Positions 48,488 to 58,085 are shown, numbered from the stretch's first letter. The stretch: 64,000 bases of DNA from Pseudolysinimonas yzui (GCF_014653215.1 NZ_BNAI01000002.1:186001-250000); one strand, 5' to 3'. Numbers and translations: made by a program. The notes: a model not told the origin generated them from the letters alone.

Positions 48488-50461
48488 GTGAGCATGGGAA
48501 ACCGGGGGGCGGCACCTCCGGGGGTCCCGCGTGTCGGCGGTTCCCACGTGGGGGGCAGGGATGCGCAGGCGCAGCGTCAACTCAACGCTGAGGCGCCGCG
48601 CATCCCGGACCTGATCCAGCGCATCGGTGACCTGTTCCGGCCCCACCGCCGCACCCTCGTCATCACGATCGTGCTGGTGCTGGCGAGCGCCGCCCTCGGA
48701 GTGCTGCCGCCGCTGCTCACCCAGCAGGCCTTCGACCGGGGGCTCTTCCCGCCTTCAGGGCGCCCCGACGTTCCCGTGCTCGTCGAGTTGGTCGGCCTCA
48801 TGTTGCTCGCCTGGTTCGCCTCGGCCGGTCTCGGGGTCGGGCAGACCTTCCTCACCGCCCGCATCGGCAACAGCGTCATGGGCGCGCTGCGGGTGCGGCT
48901 GTTCTCGCATCTCCAGGCGATGGAGCTCGGCTTCTTCACCCGAACCAAGACGGGCATCATCCAGTCGCGCCTGCAGAACGACGTCGGCGGCGTCGCGGGG
49001 GTGCTGAGCAACACCATCCAGAGCGTCGTCGGCAACACCGTCACGGTGATCGCCGCGGTCGTGGCGATGCTGCTGCTCTCGTGGCAGATGACGATCGTCG
49101 CCGTCGTGCTGATGCCGATCCTGGTGTTCGTGCAGCGACGCGTCGGGCAGGCCCGCGCGCGCATCGCGACGAAGACCCAGGAGTCGCTCTCGGACATGAC
49201 GGCGATCACCCAGGAGACGCTGAGCGTCTCGGGGGTGTTGCTGGCGAAGGCGTTCAACCAGCAAGAGGCCGAGGTCACCCGGTACCGCGACGAGAACGGT
49301 CGGCAGATCAAGCTGCAGATCCAATTGGCGATGACCGGCCAGTGGTTCTTCGCGATCGTGAACGTCGTGCTCTCGGTGATCCCCGCCGTCATCTACCTGG
49401 TCGCGGCGTGGCTGATCGTCCAGGATGTGCCGGTCACCGCCGGCACGATCGTCGCGTTCACGACGGTGCAGGCGCGTCTCATGTGGCCGCTCATGGGGCT
49501 GCTGCGGGTGGCCCTCGATCTGCAGACGTCGCAGGCGTTGTTCGCCCGCATCTTCGAGTATCTCGATCTGGTGCCGGCGATTCGGGATGCCGACGACGCC
49601 GAGCCCGTCGATGCGGGGCGGCTCGGGGCGGTCGCGTTCGAGAACGTCGTGTTCCGCTATCCCGATCAGACGGGTGATGCCCCCGCGACGCTGAAGGGCA
49701 TCTCGTTCGAGCTGGAGCCGGGCACCTACGCCGCATTCGTCGGGCCGTCGGGTGCAGGCAAGACGACGGTGTCGTACCTGGTGCCGCGGCTGCACGAAGT
49801 CACCGACGGTCGCGTGCTGTTCGCGGGCGAGGACGTGCGCCGGCTCCGCCACGCGTCGCTCATCGATGCGATCGGCATCGTCAGCCAGGAGACCTACCTC
49901 TTCCACGCGACGATCGCCGAGAACCTGCGGTACGCCAAACCGGATGCCACCGACGGCGAACTCGAGGCGGCGGCGCGCGCCGCGAACATCCATGACACCA
50001 TCGCCTCGTTCCCCGAGGGGTACGCCACCGTCGTCGGCGAACGCGGCTACCGCCTCTCGGGGGGCGAGAAGCAGCGCGTCGCGATCGCGCGGGTGCTGCT
50101 CAAGGATCCGGCGGTGCTCATCCTCGACGAGGCGACCAGTTCACTCGACACCGTCTCGGAGCGCATCGTGCAGCGCGCCCTCGACGATGCCTCGCGAGGT
50201 CGCACGACCCTGGCGATCGCCCATCGGCTCTCGACGGTGGTCGCCGCCGACGTGATCTTCGTCGTCGAGGCGGGCCGCATCGTCGAGCGCGGCACGCACG
50301 CCGAGTTGCTCGCCGCCGGAGGCGTCTACGCGCGACTCTTCGCGGAACAGCTAGCCGACGCGATGGAGACCGGCGTCACTCCGGAGGAAGGGCCGCGAGC
50401 AGCTGCGTCATCGCGTCGATCTCGGCCTGCTGGGCCCGCCGGATCCCCTCCGCGAGAGTGA
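48488..50461 (+). CDS. ABC transporter, fused permease/ATPase (exporter type)
   Basis: The 657-residue half-transporter has six membrane segments (about 58-325). The nucleotide-binding domain has Walker A GPSGAGKTT near residue 418, signature LSGGEKQR near 522 and Walker B AVLILDEATSSLD near 540, with a switch His in AIAHRLST. It works as a homodimer or with a partner to export lipids, peptides or drugs. The GTG has TAGGCT six bases upstream, indicating a leaderless transcript. The last about 28 residues are antisense to the convergent DUF305 gene. Confidence 0.9.
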   Translation: MSMGNRGAAPPGVPRVGGSHVGGRDAQAQRQLNAEAPRIPDLIQRIGDLFRPHRRTLVITIVLVLASAALGVLPPLLTQQAFDRGLFPPSGRPDVPVLVELVGLMLLAWFASAGLGVGQTFLTARIGNSVMGALRVRLFSHLQAMELGFFTRTKTGIIQSRLQNDVGGVAGVLSNTIQSVVGNTVTVIAAVVAMLLLSWQMTIVAVVLMPILVFVQRRVGQARARIATKTQESLSDMTAITQETLSVSGVLLAKAFNQQEAEVTRYRDENGRQIKLQIQLAMTGQWFFAIVNVVLSVIPAVIYLVAAWLIVQDVPVTAGTIVAFTTVQARLMWPLMGLLRVALDLQTSQALFARIFEYLDLVPAIRDADDAEPVDAGRLGAVAFENVVFRYPDQTGDAPATLKGISFELEPGTYAAFVGPSGAGKTTVSYLVPRLHEVTDGRVLFAGEDVRRLRHASLIDAIGIVSQETYLFHATIAENLRYAKPDATDGELEAAARAANIHDTIASFPEGYATVVGERGYRLSGGEKQRVAIARVLLKDPAVLILDEATSSLDTVSERIVQRALDDASRGRTTLAIAHRLSTVVAADVIFVVEAGRIVERGTHAELLAAGGVYARLFAEQLADAMETGVTPEEGPRAAASSRRSRPAGPAGSPPRE

Positions 50462-51820: not shown

Positions 51821-54019
51821 GTGACGGTCGATGATGCGCACGGCGACCATGTCGCCACGCGGGTGCGCCGTCGTCATTCGCTGAGCATCAAGTCGCTGCT
51901 GCTGCTCATGCTGTTGCTGGTCAGCGTCGGGTCGAATGTCGTGGTCGGCGTGATCGGCTACATCAACGGCACCGAGTCCCTCACCGAGGCCGCCGAAGAT
52001 CGTCTCACCGAGGTGCGCGACTCCCGGGCCCGCGAGATCCTCAACCTCTTCGACTCGATCGAGGCCTCGCTGCTGCTGGCCAGCCGCGACAGCGCCGTCG
52101 TGGATGCCGAGCTCGCGTTCTCGGCCGGCGTCGCCGAGCTCGACAGCGCGGCGATCGCCGATGACGCCGTCGCCGCAGCCGGGGGCGAGCCCGCCCCGGT
52201 GCTGACCCCGGAGCAGGAGGCCGAGCTGGTCGCCTACTTCACCGACGACTTCGGGCCGCGGCTCAACGAGGCCAGTGGCGAAGAGAACGACGCCTCGAGC
52301 TTCATCCCCGACTCGGCGTCGGCCCGCTACCTGCTGTACCACTACACGGTCAAGGGCGGCGAGGATGCCTCCGCCGTCGACGACGCCGGCGACGGCAGCG
52401 CGTGGTCGGCGGCGCACGCCGAGCACCACGACTACCTGCGCCGGCTCGCCAACCTGTCGGACTACCCCGGCCTCGTGCTCATCTCAACCTCGGGTCAGGT
52501 CGTCTACACGGTCAACAAGGATGTCGACCTCGGCGCCGACCTCGTCGACGGGCCCTACAGCTACACCAACCTCGCCCTGGCGTTCCAGCAAGCGATGTCG
52601 GGCAACCGCCTCGATGCGGTGACCTTCGCCGACTTCGAGAAGTACGCGCCCGCGCTCGATGCTCCGACCGGATGGGCGGTTGCGCCGATTGCGAGCAACG
52701 ACGCGATCGTCGGGGCGATCGGTGTGCGGCTGCCGTCCGAACGCATCGACGCGATCATGACGGGCGGAGGCGACTGGGAGAACAGCGGTCTCGGCGAAAC
52801 CGGGGAGGCCTACCTCGTCGGTCGGGACGGAACGATGCGATCGCTGTCGCGGGATCTGGCTGAGGACCCGGGAGGCTATCTCACCGCCGCGACCAGCGCC
52901 GGCCTGCAGCTCGAGGATGCCGAGCGCGCCGTCGAGACCGGGCAGACGATGCTCATCCAGCGGGTCGACACCAAGGCCGCTGAGCTCGCGCTTGACGGCC
53001 GGTCGGGGGTCGAGACCTCAGCAAACTACCTCGGGGATCGGTCGATCGCGGCATACGCCCCCGTCAAGCCCGCGGGATTCCAGTGGGCGATCATCGCCGA
53101 GATCGACGCCGACGAAGCGCTCGCGCCGGTCTCCGACTTCACGAGTCGACTCGCCATCTCGTCCGCCATCCTCGTCGCCATCGTGTCGCTCGTGTCGGTG
53201 TTCATCGCGGGCTTCGCGGTGCGTCCGCTCTACCGGCTGCGGGATGCCGCCCGCCGCATCGCCGCGGGCGAGAGCGGCGTGCAGGTGGAGGCGGGCGAGA
53301 GCGACGAACTCGCCGACGTCGCCGCGGCGTTCAATGAGATGAGCCGCAGCCTCGAACTCAAGAACGCCCTGCTCGAGGAGCAACGCGTCGAGAACGAGCG
53401 TCTGCTGCGCACCCTCATGCCCGAGAGCATCGCGAAGCGGTATCGCGAGGGCGCCCGCACGATCGTGCAGGATCACCAGGAGGTGACCGTGCTGTTCGCC
53501 GACGTCGTCGGCTTCGAGGAGTACGGCCGGGGTCTCGACTCCGAGAAGGCCCTCGACCTGCTCAACGAGATCTTCCGCGCGTTCGACGACGCCGCCGAAC
53601 AGCACGGCGTGGAGCGGGTGCGCAGCACGCGCGCCGGGTATCTCGCCAGCTGCGGACTCACCATCCCCCGCGTCGACAACGCCCGTCGCGCCGTCTCGTT
53701 CTCGCTCGACATCGCGCGCATCGTCGAGCGTTTCGGCGCCCAGCAGGGCGCCGACATCCACGTGCGCGTCGGGATCGACACCGGCACCGTCACGAGCGGA
53801 CTCGTCGGGCGCTCGTCGATGGTCTACGACCTGTGGGGCGACGCCGTGAGTCTGGCCTTCCGGCTGCAAGGCGGAGCGACCGAGTCGGGCGTGTTCCTCA
53901 CCCAACGGGTCGTCGACAAGATCCCGGATGCCCTTCCCTACGGCGACGCGGGTGTCGTCGAGACCGCTTCGGGCTGGCAGCGGGTCTGGCGCATCGACCC
54001 GGCCGCCGCCGAGCTCTAA
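51821..54019 (+). CDS. receptor protein with degenerate class III adenylate/guanylate cyclase domain
   Basis: The 732-residue protein has a membrane span (about 25-47), a large extracellular Cache-like sensor (48-440), a second span (444-466), a HAMP domain (467-520) and a cyclase homology domain (about 545-700). The first metal Asp561 (LFADVVGF) and purine-contact Asp670 (YDLWGD) are kept. The Lys position is Arg601, the second metal Asp is Ala605 (STRAGY instead of TIGDxY), and the transition-state Asn is Ser677, while Arg681 remains. Cyclase activity is therefore doubtful. It is followed 20 bases on by a channel with a cyclic-nucleotide domain. Confidence 0.85.
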   Translation: MTVDDAHGDHVATRVRRRHSLSIKSLLLLMLLLVSVGSNVVVGVIGYINGTESLTEAAEDRLTEVRDSRAREILNLFDSIEASLLLASRDSAVVDAELAFSAGVAELDSAAIADDAVAAAGGEPAPVLTPEQEAELVAYFTDDFGPRLNEASGEENDASSFIPDSASARYLLYHYTVKGGEDASAVDDAGDGSAWSAAHAEHHDYLRRLANLSDYPGLVLISTSGQVVYTVNKDVDLGADLVDGPYSYTNLALAFQQAMSGNRLDAVTFADFEKYAPALDAPTGWAVAPIASNDAIVGAIGVRLPSERIDAIMTGGGDWENSGLGETGEAYLVGRDGTMRSLSRDLAEDPGGYLTAATSAGLQLEDAERAVETGQTMLIQRVDTKAAELALDGRSGVETSANYLGDRSIAAYAPVKPAGFQWAIIAEIDADEALAPVSDFTSRLAISSAILVAIVSLVSVFIAGFAVRPLYRLRDAARRIAAGESGVQVEAGESDELADVAAAFNEMSRSLELKNALLEEQRVENERLLRTLMPESIAKRYREGARTIVQDHQEVTVLFADVVGFEEYGRGLDSEKALDLLNEIFRAFDDAAEQHGVERVRSTRAGYLASCGLTIPRVDNARRAVSFSLDIARIVERFGAQQGADIHVRVGIDTGTVTSGLVGRSSMVYDLWGDAVSLAFRLQGGATESGVFLTQRVVDKIPDALPYGDAGVVETASGWQRVWRIDPAAAEL

Positions 54020-54039
54020 GCGACGACCGAGATGAACCG

Positions 54040-55491
54040 ATGATCGAGATCCTCGCCGACATCGCCGCCGAACCCTGGTTCTGGCCGGCCGTCTCGGTGA
54101 TCGTCGGGCTGCCGATCGTTCTGCTCGTGCTCGGCGAAGTGCACACCGCGATGGTGCGACGTGACTCACCGGGCACGCGCATCGTGCTGCTCATCCGCAA
54201 CGTGCTCGCACCGCTCGGGGCGATCATCATCCTGTTCACGCAGATCCCGCAGGAGGCGGGGAACGCAGAGTTCACCTGGCCGAAGGTGGCGGCCACCGCG
54301 TTCGGCTTCGTGCTCATCCTGGTGCTGCTCAACGGGCTCAACCTGGCGATCTTCGTCACCGCGAAGCAGGGCACCTGGCGCAACCGCCTCCCGTCGATCT
54401 TCGTCGACATCGCGCGCGTGCTGCTCATCGCCATCTGCCTCGCCGTGCTGTTCGGCTGGATCTGGAACGCCGACATCGGCGGGTTTTTCACGGCACTCGG
54501 CATCGGGTCGATCGTCATCGGCCTCGCGCTGCAGAACGCCGTCGGCTCGGTGCTCTCGGGGCTCTTCCTGCTGTTCGAGCAGCCGTTCGAAATCGGCGAC
54601 TACATCGTCACCCCCGACGGTCGCGGTCGTGTCATCGCGGTGAACTGGCGGGCGACGCACCTCGACACCAGCAACGGCATTCTCGTCATCCCGAACTCGA
54701 CCCTGTCGGGTGCGTCGTTCACGAACCTCTCGCAGGCGACGTCCCCGTTCGAGGCCTCCGACATCGTGCGCTTCGCGACCGACGATCCGCCGCAGCTGGT
54801 GATCGACGTCCTCGTCGAGGTCGCGTCGGGACTGCCCGAACGCCATCCCGACGAGACGCCGTACGCCATCCCGCTCGGCAAGTCGAAGTACGAGATCAAC
54901 TTCGCTCTCACCTCACCGGCCCGCCGGTACATGTCGCTCGGCCTGTTCCGCAAGCGGCTCTGGTACGCCGCACGTCGGGCCGGCTTGCACCTCGACCGCG
55001 ACCTCACCGACAACTTCGCGACCCCGCAGCGCACCCGCGAGCACCTGACGCGGCTCGCTCCGCGGTTCTACCTCAGCGTTCCCGAGGCCCTGGCGCTCGT
55101 CGAACGGGGGGCGTGCCTCCAGCAGTACGGCGAGGGCGAGATCGTGCAACGCGCGGACACCGTTCCCGACGGCGTGCGGATCATCATCAGTGGCAACGTC
55201 GAGCTCTCGGTGCCCGCCTCTCGCGGCGCGATGCTCCCGGTCGGCAAGCTGGGGCGCGACGACGTGCTCGGGGTCACCGCGCTCACCCGGCAGGTCGCCG
55301 GCGCCGAGGTCGTCGCCCTCGTCGACCTCGCCGTGCTGTTCGTGCCGCTGGCGGTCATCGACGAACTGGTGCGCTCGCATCCCGACCTCGCCCGCGACAT
55401 GGGCCAGGCGATCGACGCCCGGCACCAGCTCGTCGCCCAGGCCCTGCGCGATGCGGGCGAGCCTCCGCCGGTCTCCCTCCCGGTCGGCTGA
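54040..55491 (+). CDS. MscS-family channel with C-terminal cyclic-nucleotide-binding-like domain
   Basis: The 483-residue protein has about five membrane segments. The pore helix and beta domain typical of MscS lie at 145-235 (GGFFTALGIGSIVIGLALQ, then FEIGDYIVTPDGRGRVIAVNWR and ILVIPNSTL). A CNB-like domain occupies 350-465. In the phosphate-binding cassette the usual GE and R are replaced (GVTAL at 411-415, Gly421 at the Arg position), so binding of cAMP or cGMP is uncertain. The fusion matches the bCNG class of MscS relatives. It is co-directional with the cyclase-like receptor 20 bases upstream. Confidence 0.85.
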   Translation: MIEILADIAAEPWFWPAVSVIVGLPIVLLVLGEVHTAMVRRDSPGTRIVLLIRNVLAPLGAIIILFTQIPQEAGNAEFTWPKVAATAFGFVLILVLLNGLNLAIFVTAKQGTWRNRLPSIFVDIARVLLIAICLAVLFGWIWNADIGGFFTALGIGSIVIGLALQNAVGSVLSGLFLLFEQPFEIGDYIVTPDGRGRVIAVNWRATHLDTSNGILVIPNSTLSGASFTNLSQATSPFEASDIVRFATDDPPQLVIDVLVEVASGLPERHPDETPYAIPLGKSKYEINFALTSPARRYMSLGLFRKRLWYAARRAGLHLDRDLTDNFATPQRTREHLTRLAPRFYLSVPEALALVERGACLQQYGEGEIVQRADTVPDGVRIIISGNVELSVPASRGAMLPVGKLGRDDVLGVTALTRQVAGAEVVALVDLAVLFVPLAVIDELVRSHPDLARDMGQAIDARHQLVAQALRDAGEPPPVSLPVG

Positions 55492-55538: not shown

Positions 55539-56900
55539 ATGAAGTACGCGGAGACGGTGCTCGACCTCGTCGGCAACACGCCGCTCGTCAAGCTCAACAG
55601 CGTGACGGACGGCATCCAGGCGACGATCCTCGCCAAGATCGAGTACCTCAACCCGGGCGGGTCGAGTAAAGACCGCATCGCGGCGCGCATCATCGACGCG
55701 GCCGAGCGTGAGGGCAAGCTGGCGCCCGGCGGCACGATCGTCGAGCCGACGTCGGGCAACACCGGCATCGGCCTCGCCCTCGTCGCCCAGCAGCGCGGCT
55801 ACCGTTGCGTCTTCGTGCTGCCCGACAAGGTCGGCGAAGACAAGCGCAACGTGCTGCTCGCCTACGGTGCCGAGATCGTCGTCACTCCGACGAGCGTCGC
55901 CCCCGAGAGCCCCGACTCCTACTACTCCGTCTCCGACCGGCTGGTGACGGAGATCCCCGGCGCGTTCAAGCCCGACCAGTACTCCAACCCGAACGGGCCG
56001 CTCAGCCACTACGAGACGACCGGGCCGGAGATCTGGCGCGACACCGACGGCAAGGTCACCCACTACGTGGCCGGCGTCGGCACCGGCGGCACCATCTCGG
56101 GCGCCGGCAAGTACCTCAAAGAGCAGAACCCCGACATCAAGGTGATCGGGGCCGACCCCGAGGGATCCGTGTACTCCGGCGGCACCGGCCGCCCGTACCT
56201 GGTCGAGGGCGTCGGCGAGGACTTCTGGCCGACCGCGTACGACCCGAGCGTCGTCGACGAGATCATCGCGTCGAGCGATGCCGAATCCTTCGAGATCACC
56301 CGCCGCCTCGCCCGCGAGGAGGGCCTGCTCGTCGGCGGCTCCTCGGGACTCGCGGTGAGCGCCGCCCTCAAGGCCGCGAAAGACCTCCCCGCCGACGTCG
56401 TCGTCGTCGTGCTGCTGCCCGACGGCGGGCGCGGCTACCTCGGCAAGGTCTTCAACGACAAGTGGATGCGCTCCTATGGCTTCCTGCCCGCCGAGTCGGG
56501 CGCGACCGTCGCCGACGTCGTCGGGGCGAAGGAGGGCGACCTGCCCGACCTCATCCACGTGCACCCGAGCGACACCGTGCGCCACACGATCGACAAGATG
56601 CGGCGCTACGACATCTCGCAGATGCCGGTGCTCACCGCCGAACCGCCGGTCGTGATGGGCGAGGTGATGGGGTCGATCGACGAGAAGGCGCTCGTGGATG
56701 CCGTCTTCTCCGGGCGCGCTCAGCTCACCGACTCCCTCGAGGCCTTCGTCTCGCCGCCGCTGAAACTGATCGGCGTCAACGAGTCGGTCGAAGCGGCGCG
56801 GGAATCCCTGGCGACGGTCGACGCGTTGCTCGTGGTGGACGACGGCAAACCCGCCGGCGTTCTGACCCGGCACGACCTGCTCACCTTCCTCGGCGCCTAG
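55539..56900 (+). CDS. cbs: cystathionine beta-synthase
   Basis: The 453-residue enzyme joins serine and homocysteine to cystathionine. The PLP lysine is Lys44 in [15 protein letters not shown], with the phosphate loop [14 protein letters not shown] and [16 protein letters not shown] pair of CBS modules follows from about residue 340 ([23 protein letters not shown] in parts), so this is the longer regulated form and not plain cysteine synthase. The ATG has TAGGAT six bases upstream, suggesting a leaderless message. It lies 12 bases before the cystathionine gamma-synthase gene. Confidence 0.93.
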
Positions 56901-56912
56901 GACACCCCCACC

Positions 56913-58085
56913 ATGAACGACGCAACCCACCGGTTCTCCACGCGCGCGATCCGCGCGGGGCAGGACTTCGACCCGACGACCGGCTCGGTCATCCCGCCGG
57001 TCTACTTCACGACGACCTTCGTGCAGGACGGCATCGGCGGCTTCCGCAACGGCTACGAGTACGCCCGGGGCGGCAACCCGACCCGCACGGCGCTCGAGAC
57101 CCTCCTCGCCAGCCTCGAGGGTGGCGACCGGGCGTTCAGTTTCGCGTCGGGGCTCGCCGCGGAAGACACCCTGCTGCGGGCGATCCTCACTCCGGGCGCG
57201 CATGTGCTGATGGGCAACGACGTCTACGGCGGCACCCACCGGCTGGTGAGCCGGGTGTTCGTGCCGTGGGGCGCGTCGCTCTCCACGGTCGACATGAGCA
57301 ACCTGGATGCGGTGCGCGCGGCGATCCGTCCCGACGCGACCAAGGTCGTCTGGGTCGAGACGCCGAGCAACCCGCTGATGAAGATCACCGACATCGCCGC
57401 GGTCGTCGCCATCGCGCACGAGGTGGGCGCGATCGTCGTCGTCGACAACACCTTCGCGACGCCGTACCTGCAGCAGCCGCTCGATCTCGGGGCGGACGTC
57501 GTCGTGCACTCCACGACGAAGTACCTCGGGGGTCACAGCGACGTGCTCGGCGGTGCGCTCATCCTGCGCGACGCGACCGAGGTCGGCGGGCAGAGCCTGG
57601 TCGAGAAGGTCGAGTTCCTGCAGTTCGGCGTCGGTGCGGTCTCCGGCCCGATGGATGCCTGGCTCACCATCCGCGGCATCAAGACGCTCGCGGTGCGGAT
57701 GGATCGCCACTCGGCGAACGCTTCGACGATCGCCGAACGCCTGGTGGGGCATCCGAAACTCACCGCCGTGTACTACCCCGGCCTTCCCGATCATCCCGGT
57801 CACGACCTCGCCGCGGCTCAGATGAGCGCGTTCGGCGGCATGATCTCGGTGCAGCTCGCCGACGGCCCCACCGCGCGTCGGTTCGCCGAGTCGACGAGGC
57901 TGTTCCAGCTGGCGGAGTCGCTCGGCGGCGTCGAGTCGCTCGTCTGCTACCCCTCGGAGATGACCCACGCATCGGTGCGCGGCACCGAGCTCGAGATCCC
58001 CGACTCGGTCGTGCGGCTCTCGGTCGGCATCGAGGATGTCGGCGACCTCATCGACGATCTGGTGACGGCGCTCGACGCCCTGTGA
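56913..58085 (+). CDS. metB: cystathionine gamma-synthase/lyase
   Basis: The 390-residue PLP enzyme has the Cys/Met metabolism signature: [20 protein letters not shown] near the N-terminus, [13 protein letters not shown], the PLP lysine Lys203 in [13 protein letters not shown], and [19 protein letters not shown] at the C-terminus. Sequence alone does not separate gamma-synthase from gamma-lyase. Next to a cystathionine beta-synthase, a lyase role in reverse transsulfuration is plausible. Its stop overlaps the beta-glucosidase start by four bases. Confidence 0.9.

Follow-up and report, generated by a model that had tools for sequence, protein, structure and literature searches.

The window analyzed here, a stretch of 64,000 nucleotides from Pseudolysinimonas yzui (GCF_014653215.1, NZ_BNAI01000002.1:186001-250000; genome of 3.08 Mb in 22 contigs), carries two genes on its plus strand: one for a receptor with a degenerate class III cyclase-like domain (51821-54019, GTG start, 732 amino acids), and, 20 nucleotides further on, one for an MscS-type channel with a cyclic nucleotide-binding (CNB)-like domain (54040-55491, 483 amino acids). 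Based on Pfam matches, AlphaFold2 (AF2) models and a 27-row orthologue alignment, the receptor comprises an N-terminal transmembrane segment; an extracellular double-Cache-like sensor (residues ~50-435), within which dCache_1 gives a weak Pfam match at residues 209-416; a second transmembrane segment; a HAMP domain (53201-53356, residues 461-512; PF00672, E 1.2e-10); a linker; and the cyclase-like domain (53465-53917, residues 550-699; Guanylate_cyc PF00211, E 1.6e-31). The AF2 model of the receptor (predicted local distance difference test score, pLDDT, 80.6) agrees with this layout. For the channel, Pfam and AF2 (pLDDT 82.7) indicate five predicted transmembrane helices (14-41, 46-67, 80-106, 119-142 and 146-180), the MscS pore helix and beta domain (MS_channel_2nd PF00924, E 1.4e-18), an alpha-beta domain, and the C-terminal CNB-like domain (55120-55380; PF00027, E 1.8e-09).

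Both nucleotide-related domains are predicted to retain their folds. In comparisons with known structures, the modeled cyclase domain matched the mammalian class III catalytic domain 1azs_A (Z 24.0, 185 aligned residues, root mean square deviation 2.8) and the mycobacterial Rv1625c structure 7yz9 (Z 23.2), while the channel domain matched the MlotiK1 CNB domain 2k0g (Z 16.8, 131 aligned residues, root mean square deviation 2.5) as well as the CNB domains of PKA and PKG. Rv1625c-like class III cyclases thus share a fold with the receptor domain, but the latter is degenerate and paired with a channel.

Alignment with canonical cyclases places D561, R601, A605, D670, S677 and R681 of the receptor at the positions of, respectively, the first metal-binding Asp (Me1), the base-selecting Lys, the second metal-binding Asp (Me2), the base-selecting Asp, the Asn and the Arg of the catalytic site. 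Three of these six residues are kept (D561, D670 and R681) and three are replaced (K601R, D605A and N677S): the sequence ERVRSTRAGYL stands where the canonical motif is EKIKT(I/V)GDAYM, putting Arg601 in place of the Lys and Ala605 in place of the Me2 Asp, and YDLWGDAVS stands for YDLWGDAVN, Ser677 replacing the Asn. The full six-residue set of a class III cyclase enzyme is therefore not present in this receptor, which, judged from its sequence, has very probably lost catalysis. In the channel, V412 and G421 occupy the positions of the phosphate-cassette Glu and Arg. The cassette region, GVTALTRQVAGAEV, lacks both residues and contains a conserved R417; the usual Gly-Glu ... Arg-Ser/Thr-Ala corresponds to LGVTALTRQVAGAEV. 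The substitutions in both proteins and the retention of Asp561 and Arg681 agree with the original prediction. Binding of cyclic nucleotides in the customary manner has probably been lost from the channel domain.

To define which of these features are characteristic of the family, residues were counted in 110 nonredundant pairs. None of these receptors keeps more than four of the six catalytic residues, while all six are present in seven unpaired class III cyclases that were recovered in the same searches and served as controls. The Lys is lost in all 110 pairs (Arg in 108, His in two), and the Me2 Asp is lost in 107; the three receptors that have it lack others of the six. Me1 is Asp in 90 pairs, Glu in 19 and Asn in one, and Asp670 is present in every pair. 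Asn is found at position 677 in 59 of the pairs, and R681 in 79, having been lost in 31. In the channels, the cassette Glu is absent from 110 of 110 and the cassette Arg from 109, and hence the cassette expected of a bacterial cyclic nucleotide-gated (bCNG) channel is lacking; the former Arg position is occupied by 14 different residue types. The family-constant features are therefore the change of Lys601 to Arg and the losses of Asp605 and of the cassette Glu and Arg, whereas the states of S677 and R681 are not fixed. Whether the substitutions are fixed among orthologues, a check suggested with the original prediction, is thus answered in the affirmative for the former set but not for Ser677.

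Some of these counts could be accommodated by a receptor that is a genuine but weak or unorthodox cyclase, using, for example, a single acidic metal ligand, with a channel that reads its product through an altered cassette. Me1 is acidic in 109 of the 110 pairs, over half retain N677 and most retain R681, and in certain class III cyclases a substitution of the Lys is tolerated. However, enzymes of class III use two metal ions in catalysis and require both Asp residues (PMC3961136). The second of these is gone in nearly all pairs, the three receptors that have it are missing others of the six residues, and more distant members of the family, described below, lose the first Asp instead. We consider this explanation unlikely.

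The genes for receptor and channel occur together. Searches with single proteins covered 400 genomes of the window's class. In the window's family, for which 200 genomes were searched, the receptor was found in 29 and the channel in exactly the same 29, adjacent every time and, in most of them, with overlapping start and stop; the other matches in these searches were partial and spanned single domains. A further 80 loci came from named genomes (Microbacterium, Leifsonia, Agromyces, Curtobacterium, Frigoribacterium, Salinibacterium and others, including two mycobacteria). No readable channel among them has the cassette Glu, and just one has the Arg; the sole locus without a channel stops at a contig end. 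Furthermore, the receptor is present in 201 of 248 genomes of the mycobacterial genus. In all 50 mycobacterial loci that were read (a few of which overlap with the 110 pairs), the channel adjoins the receptor, the losses are alike, and no receptor has more than four of the six catalytic residues. Mycolicibacterium tusciae (L105) and [Mycobacterium] manitobense (L109) encode proteins orthologous to both members of the window pair over their full length, and the losses are identical. As the losses recur throughout the 110 pairs and the 50 mycobacterial loci, they cannot be ascribed to chance or sequencing error: the degenerate sites are a property of the family, not a local accident.

Based on this co-occurrence, which the original prediction had proposed to check, on the adjacency of the genes, and on matched paralogous pairs in two Microbacterium genomes, each with two pairs in which a receptor and its own channel fall into matching clades, we are highly confident that receptor and channel form one functional unit. 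The alternative, that they are merely co-transcribed neighbors with separate functions, draws some support from the synteny of the locus, by which part of the adjacency could be inherited; but the presence of the two genes is patchy yet identical, paralogues match, and the pairing recurs in distant lineages, making this explanation very improbable. Two paralogous receptors per genome were noted at L047/L094 and L054/L112 (Microbacterium), at L071/L093 (Subtercola), and in genomes G374 and G476.

The window genome contains a single PF00211 match (E 1.6e-32) and a single PF00027 match (E 2.1e-10), and both belong to this pair. Among the 29 pair-bearing genomes of the family, a further class III cyclase is encoded in just two, the degenerate one being the only representative in 27, and nine have another cyclic nucleotide-binding domain. 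Therefore, in those 27 genomes there is neither a second subunit for the receptor nor a source of cyclic AMP (cAMP) of class III. According to the abstract of a survey, Actinobacteria have class III cyclases only (PMC2447327). Given this genomic context, it is unlikely that the pair makes or senses a cAMP signal in cells of the window's family, with the limit that cyclases of other classes were not searched for. These data also bear on the possibility that the pseudo-cyclase regulates another, active cyclase through heterodimerization, the channel responding to that enzyme or acting independently. Mycobacterial genomes hold several canonical cyclases that might serve as partners (L136, L137 and others), but the 27 family genomes, the window's included, offer none of class III, and where an operon supplies a second receptor cyclase (see below), that protein also appears dead; such a role is very unlikely. 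Complementation by a second cyclase subunit was likewise rejected as a candidate, as there is no other PF00211 protein in the window genome and the second cyclase of the distant operons is degenerate.

The pseudo-cyclase domain is not simply decaying. Its mean pairwise identity is 0.58, versus 0.48 for the sensor, and in twelve close comparisons its dN/dS was 0.00-0.11, lower than that of the sensor in 11 of the 12. Near the old active site, E598, V600, R601, G606-A609, G612, P616, R617, D619, R622 and R623 do not vary at all across the 27-row alignment, and one of the most variable sites is position 605 (identity 0.18), which in enzymes binds metal. The pseudo-cyclase domain is thus under strong purifying selection, and the combination of a conserved domain with variable catalytic positions is what would be expected of a domain maintained for a non-catalytic role. 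In the channel, identity is 0.81 for the pore helix compared with 0.38 for the CNB domain.

More distant pairs, found within the phylum outside the window's class, show that the active site can be lost in other ways. In three such genomes (L170, L171 and L172), a receptor (30-32% identity to that of the window) and a channel (23-26%) are followed by a second receptor-cyclase gene, giving a cyclase-channel-cyclase operon. The first receptors keep the Lys and, in two cases, the second Asp, but have His or Thr for the first Asp and have lost the Asn and Arg; the second receptors have lost almost all catalytic residues. The channels are without the cassette Glu, with L171 seemingly retaining an Arg. 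Since these losses differ from those of the window, the active site has been lost by more than one route, and the two receptors of an operon cannot complete each other. Conversely, a full-length homologue encoded on pSymA of S. meliloti, outside the phylum (WQO97075.1, L177; 32% identity over 92% of the length, E 2e-95) has all six catalytic residues intact (Guanylate_cyc E 5.7e-62), and two more rhizobial homologues resemble it. Among the annotated genes no channel lies beside WQO97075.1, the PLSDB gene tables being incomplete. This dCache-HAMP cyclase is therefore homologous to the actinobacterial receptors, but differs from them in being intact and in having no annotated channel neighbor. 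In the sampled set, intact receptors are solitary and paired receptors degenerate; a search for an orthologous pair with intact residues, which would have contradicted the original prediction, returned none.

Loss of the cassette residues was also seen in an unpaired channel: an MscS-CNB protein on plasmid pT173c of Ensifer canadensis (L180:3632-5092) has no cyclase neighbor, and its cassette, FGARHLLSDTPESGSF, likewise has neither the Glu nor the Arg. Among MscS-CNB channels, such loss may be common.

The original prediction had proposed that the two proteins drifted together to a different signal, for example direct contact or another nucleotide ligand, giving a sensor-gated mechanosensitive channel. 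The move away from cAMP is supported: with conserved substitutions and two genes that are invariably found together and side by side, cAMP synthesis and gating are unlikely. The wording that they drifted together, implying recent loss, is not supported, because the losses are already common to Microbacteriaceae and mycobacteria and exist in another form in further actinobacterial lineages. As to the replacement, sequence cannot tell contact from another ligand.

With that reservation, we propose that a dCache-HAMP receptor with a dead cyclase output acts by contact on an MscS channel with a pseudo-CNB domain, a reading that, taken as a whole, we give about an even chance of being correct. An extracellular ligand would alter the sensor, HAMP would relay the change to a dimeric pseudo-cyclase, and the latter would directly touch the cytoplasmic pseudo-CNB domain of the channel, making it easier or harder to open. 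That the coupling runs through contact and not through a ligand is inferred with moderate confidence; that the pair affects tension gating of the channel is a weaker suggestion. R417, which lies five residues past the lost cassette Glu and is kept in 101 of the 110 pairs, might have taken over the contact with an anion at a new position, or might take part in docking. More broadly, and more tentatively, a sensor family whose members elsewhere make cAMP may have been converted across Actinomycetota to a protein-protein switch, in which a dead cyclase docks on a dead cyclic nucleotide-binding domain to open or close the channel. Synthase and sensor of a second messenger would thereby have been reduced to a single switch, yielding a two-protein ligand-gated mechanosensitive channel.

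Several observations weigh against coupling by contact. Asp670 is invariant, position 601 is still basic, and an acidic residue (Asp or Glu) occupies Me1 in all pairs but one, so that the domain may still bind nucleotide; within the channel, conservation is lowest in the CNB domain; and mycobacteria also hold canonical cyclases, so that cAMP is present there. A true fusion of receptor and channel genes was not found among the loci examined, and ~120-160 pairs for ~1,200 columns are too few for covariation between the proteins to be read reliably. Apparent fusions were seen and rejected at L085:4480-8010 (Leifsonia aquatica), where the receptor C-terminus is frameshifted into the channel and a close relative (L074) has two normal genes, and at L092 and L096, where a stop codon separates the genes.

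The chief rival to contact is a diffusible ligand other than cAMP: the pseudo-cyclase would bind or release, or the pseudo-CNB domain bind, some other small molecule, for instance a nucleoside or a nucleotide. Nearly all members retain the base-recognition pair (Lys or Arg at 601, and D670), the distant first receptors included, and the conserved R417 lies within the cassette region. There is also a precedent, as the ligands of the CNB domains in trypanosomatid PKA are purine nucleosides and not cAMP (PMC10959531), and the structure of that protein with guanosine (6hyq) is among the fold matches of the channel domain (Z 15.6). The cAMP-independent trypanosomatid PKA regulatory subunit resembles the channel in having CNB domains that lack cAMP-binding residues and yet are regulatory (PMC10959531, PMC6440977). 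However, the domain studied here belongs to a channel, and at position 414, two residues past that of the cassette Glu, where the trypanosome protein has its ribose-binding Glu, it has Ala (Ala, Ser, Thr or Val in 105 of the 110 pairs). A trypanosome-like nucleoside cassette was therefore rejected, the key Glu being missing. Together with the loss of the ribose Glu, the unconstrained cassette Arg position and the low conservation of the domain, this leaves a non-cAMP ligand as a possible but rather doubtful alternative.

A pair of this type appears to be present in Mycobacterium tuberculosis, in which we take the neighboring genes Rv2435c and Rv2434c to have the receptor and channel architecture of the window pair; the same order, a dCache-HAMP-cyclase gene and then an MscS-CNB gene, is seen in mycobacteria at L105, L109 and the 50 loci. 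Rv2435c is annotated as an adenylate cyclase with dCache (PMC4822843) and has been grouped with mammalian-type cyclases (PMC3961136), in contrast to the degenerate receptor described here, a comparison made through other mycobacterial orthologues and not through the M. tuberculosis sequence. Another mycobacterial cyclase, Rv1359, is without a metal Asp (PMC3961136). bCNG channels, described as MscS proteins with a CNB domain (Caldwell et al. 2010, as cited in PMC4560390), share the MscS core and C-terminal CNB domain with the window channel, but the cassette Glu and Arg are missing in effectively all members of the window type. The apparently new element is that receptor and channel share the loss throughout the family and that both folds are under selection, although an earlier remark on the Rv2435c residues may exist.

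Hundreds of actinobacterial genomes, including the 201 mycobacterial ones, carry genes labeled as adenylate cyclase and cyclic-nucleotide-gated channel. If neither product makes or senses a cyclic nucleotide, counts of the mycobacterial cAMP network would be inflated, and the pair would represent an unknown mode of receptor-to-channel signaling that is widespread and well conserved. It would also provide a natural case in which a messenger synthase and its sensor were lost together while both folds stayed under selection, with an intact relative available for comparison.

A constant third partner gene was sought around the named loci, and none was found beyond general neighbors. In the window, these are an ABC exporter upstream (48488-50461), and a cystathionine beta-synthase (CBS) and gamma-synthase (CGL) downstream (55539-58085); the ABC exporter/CBS/CGL block recurs in at most about half of the named loci.

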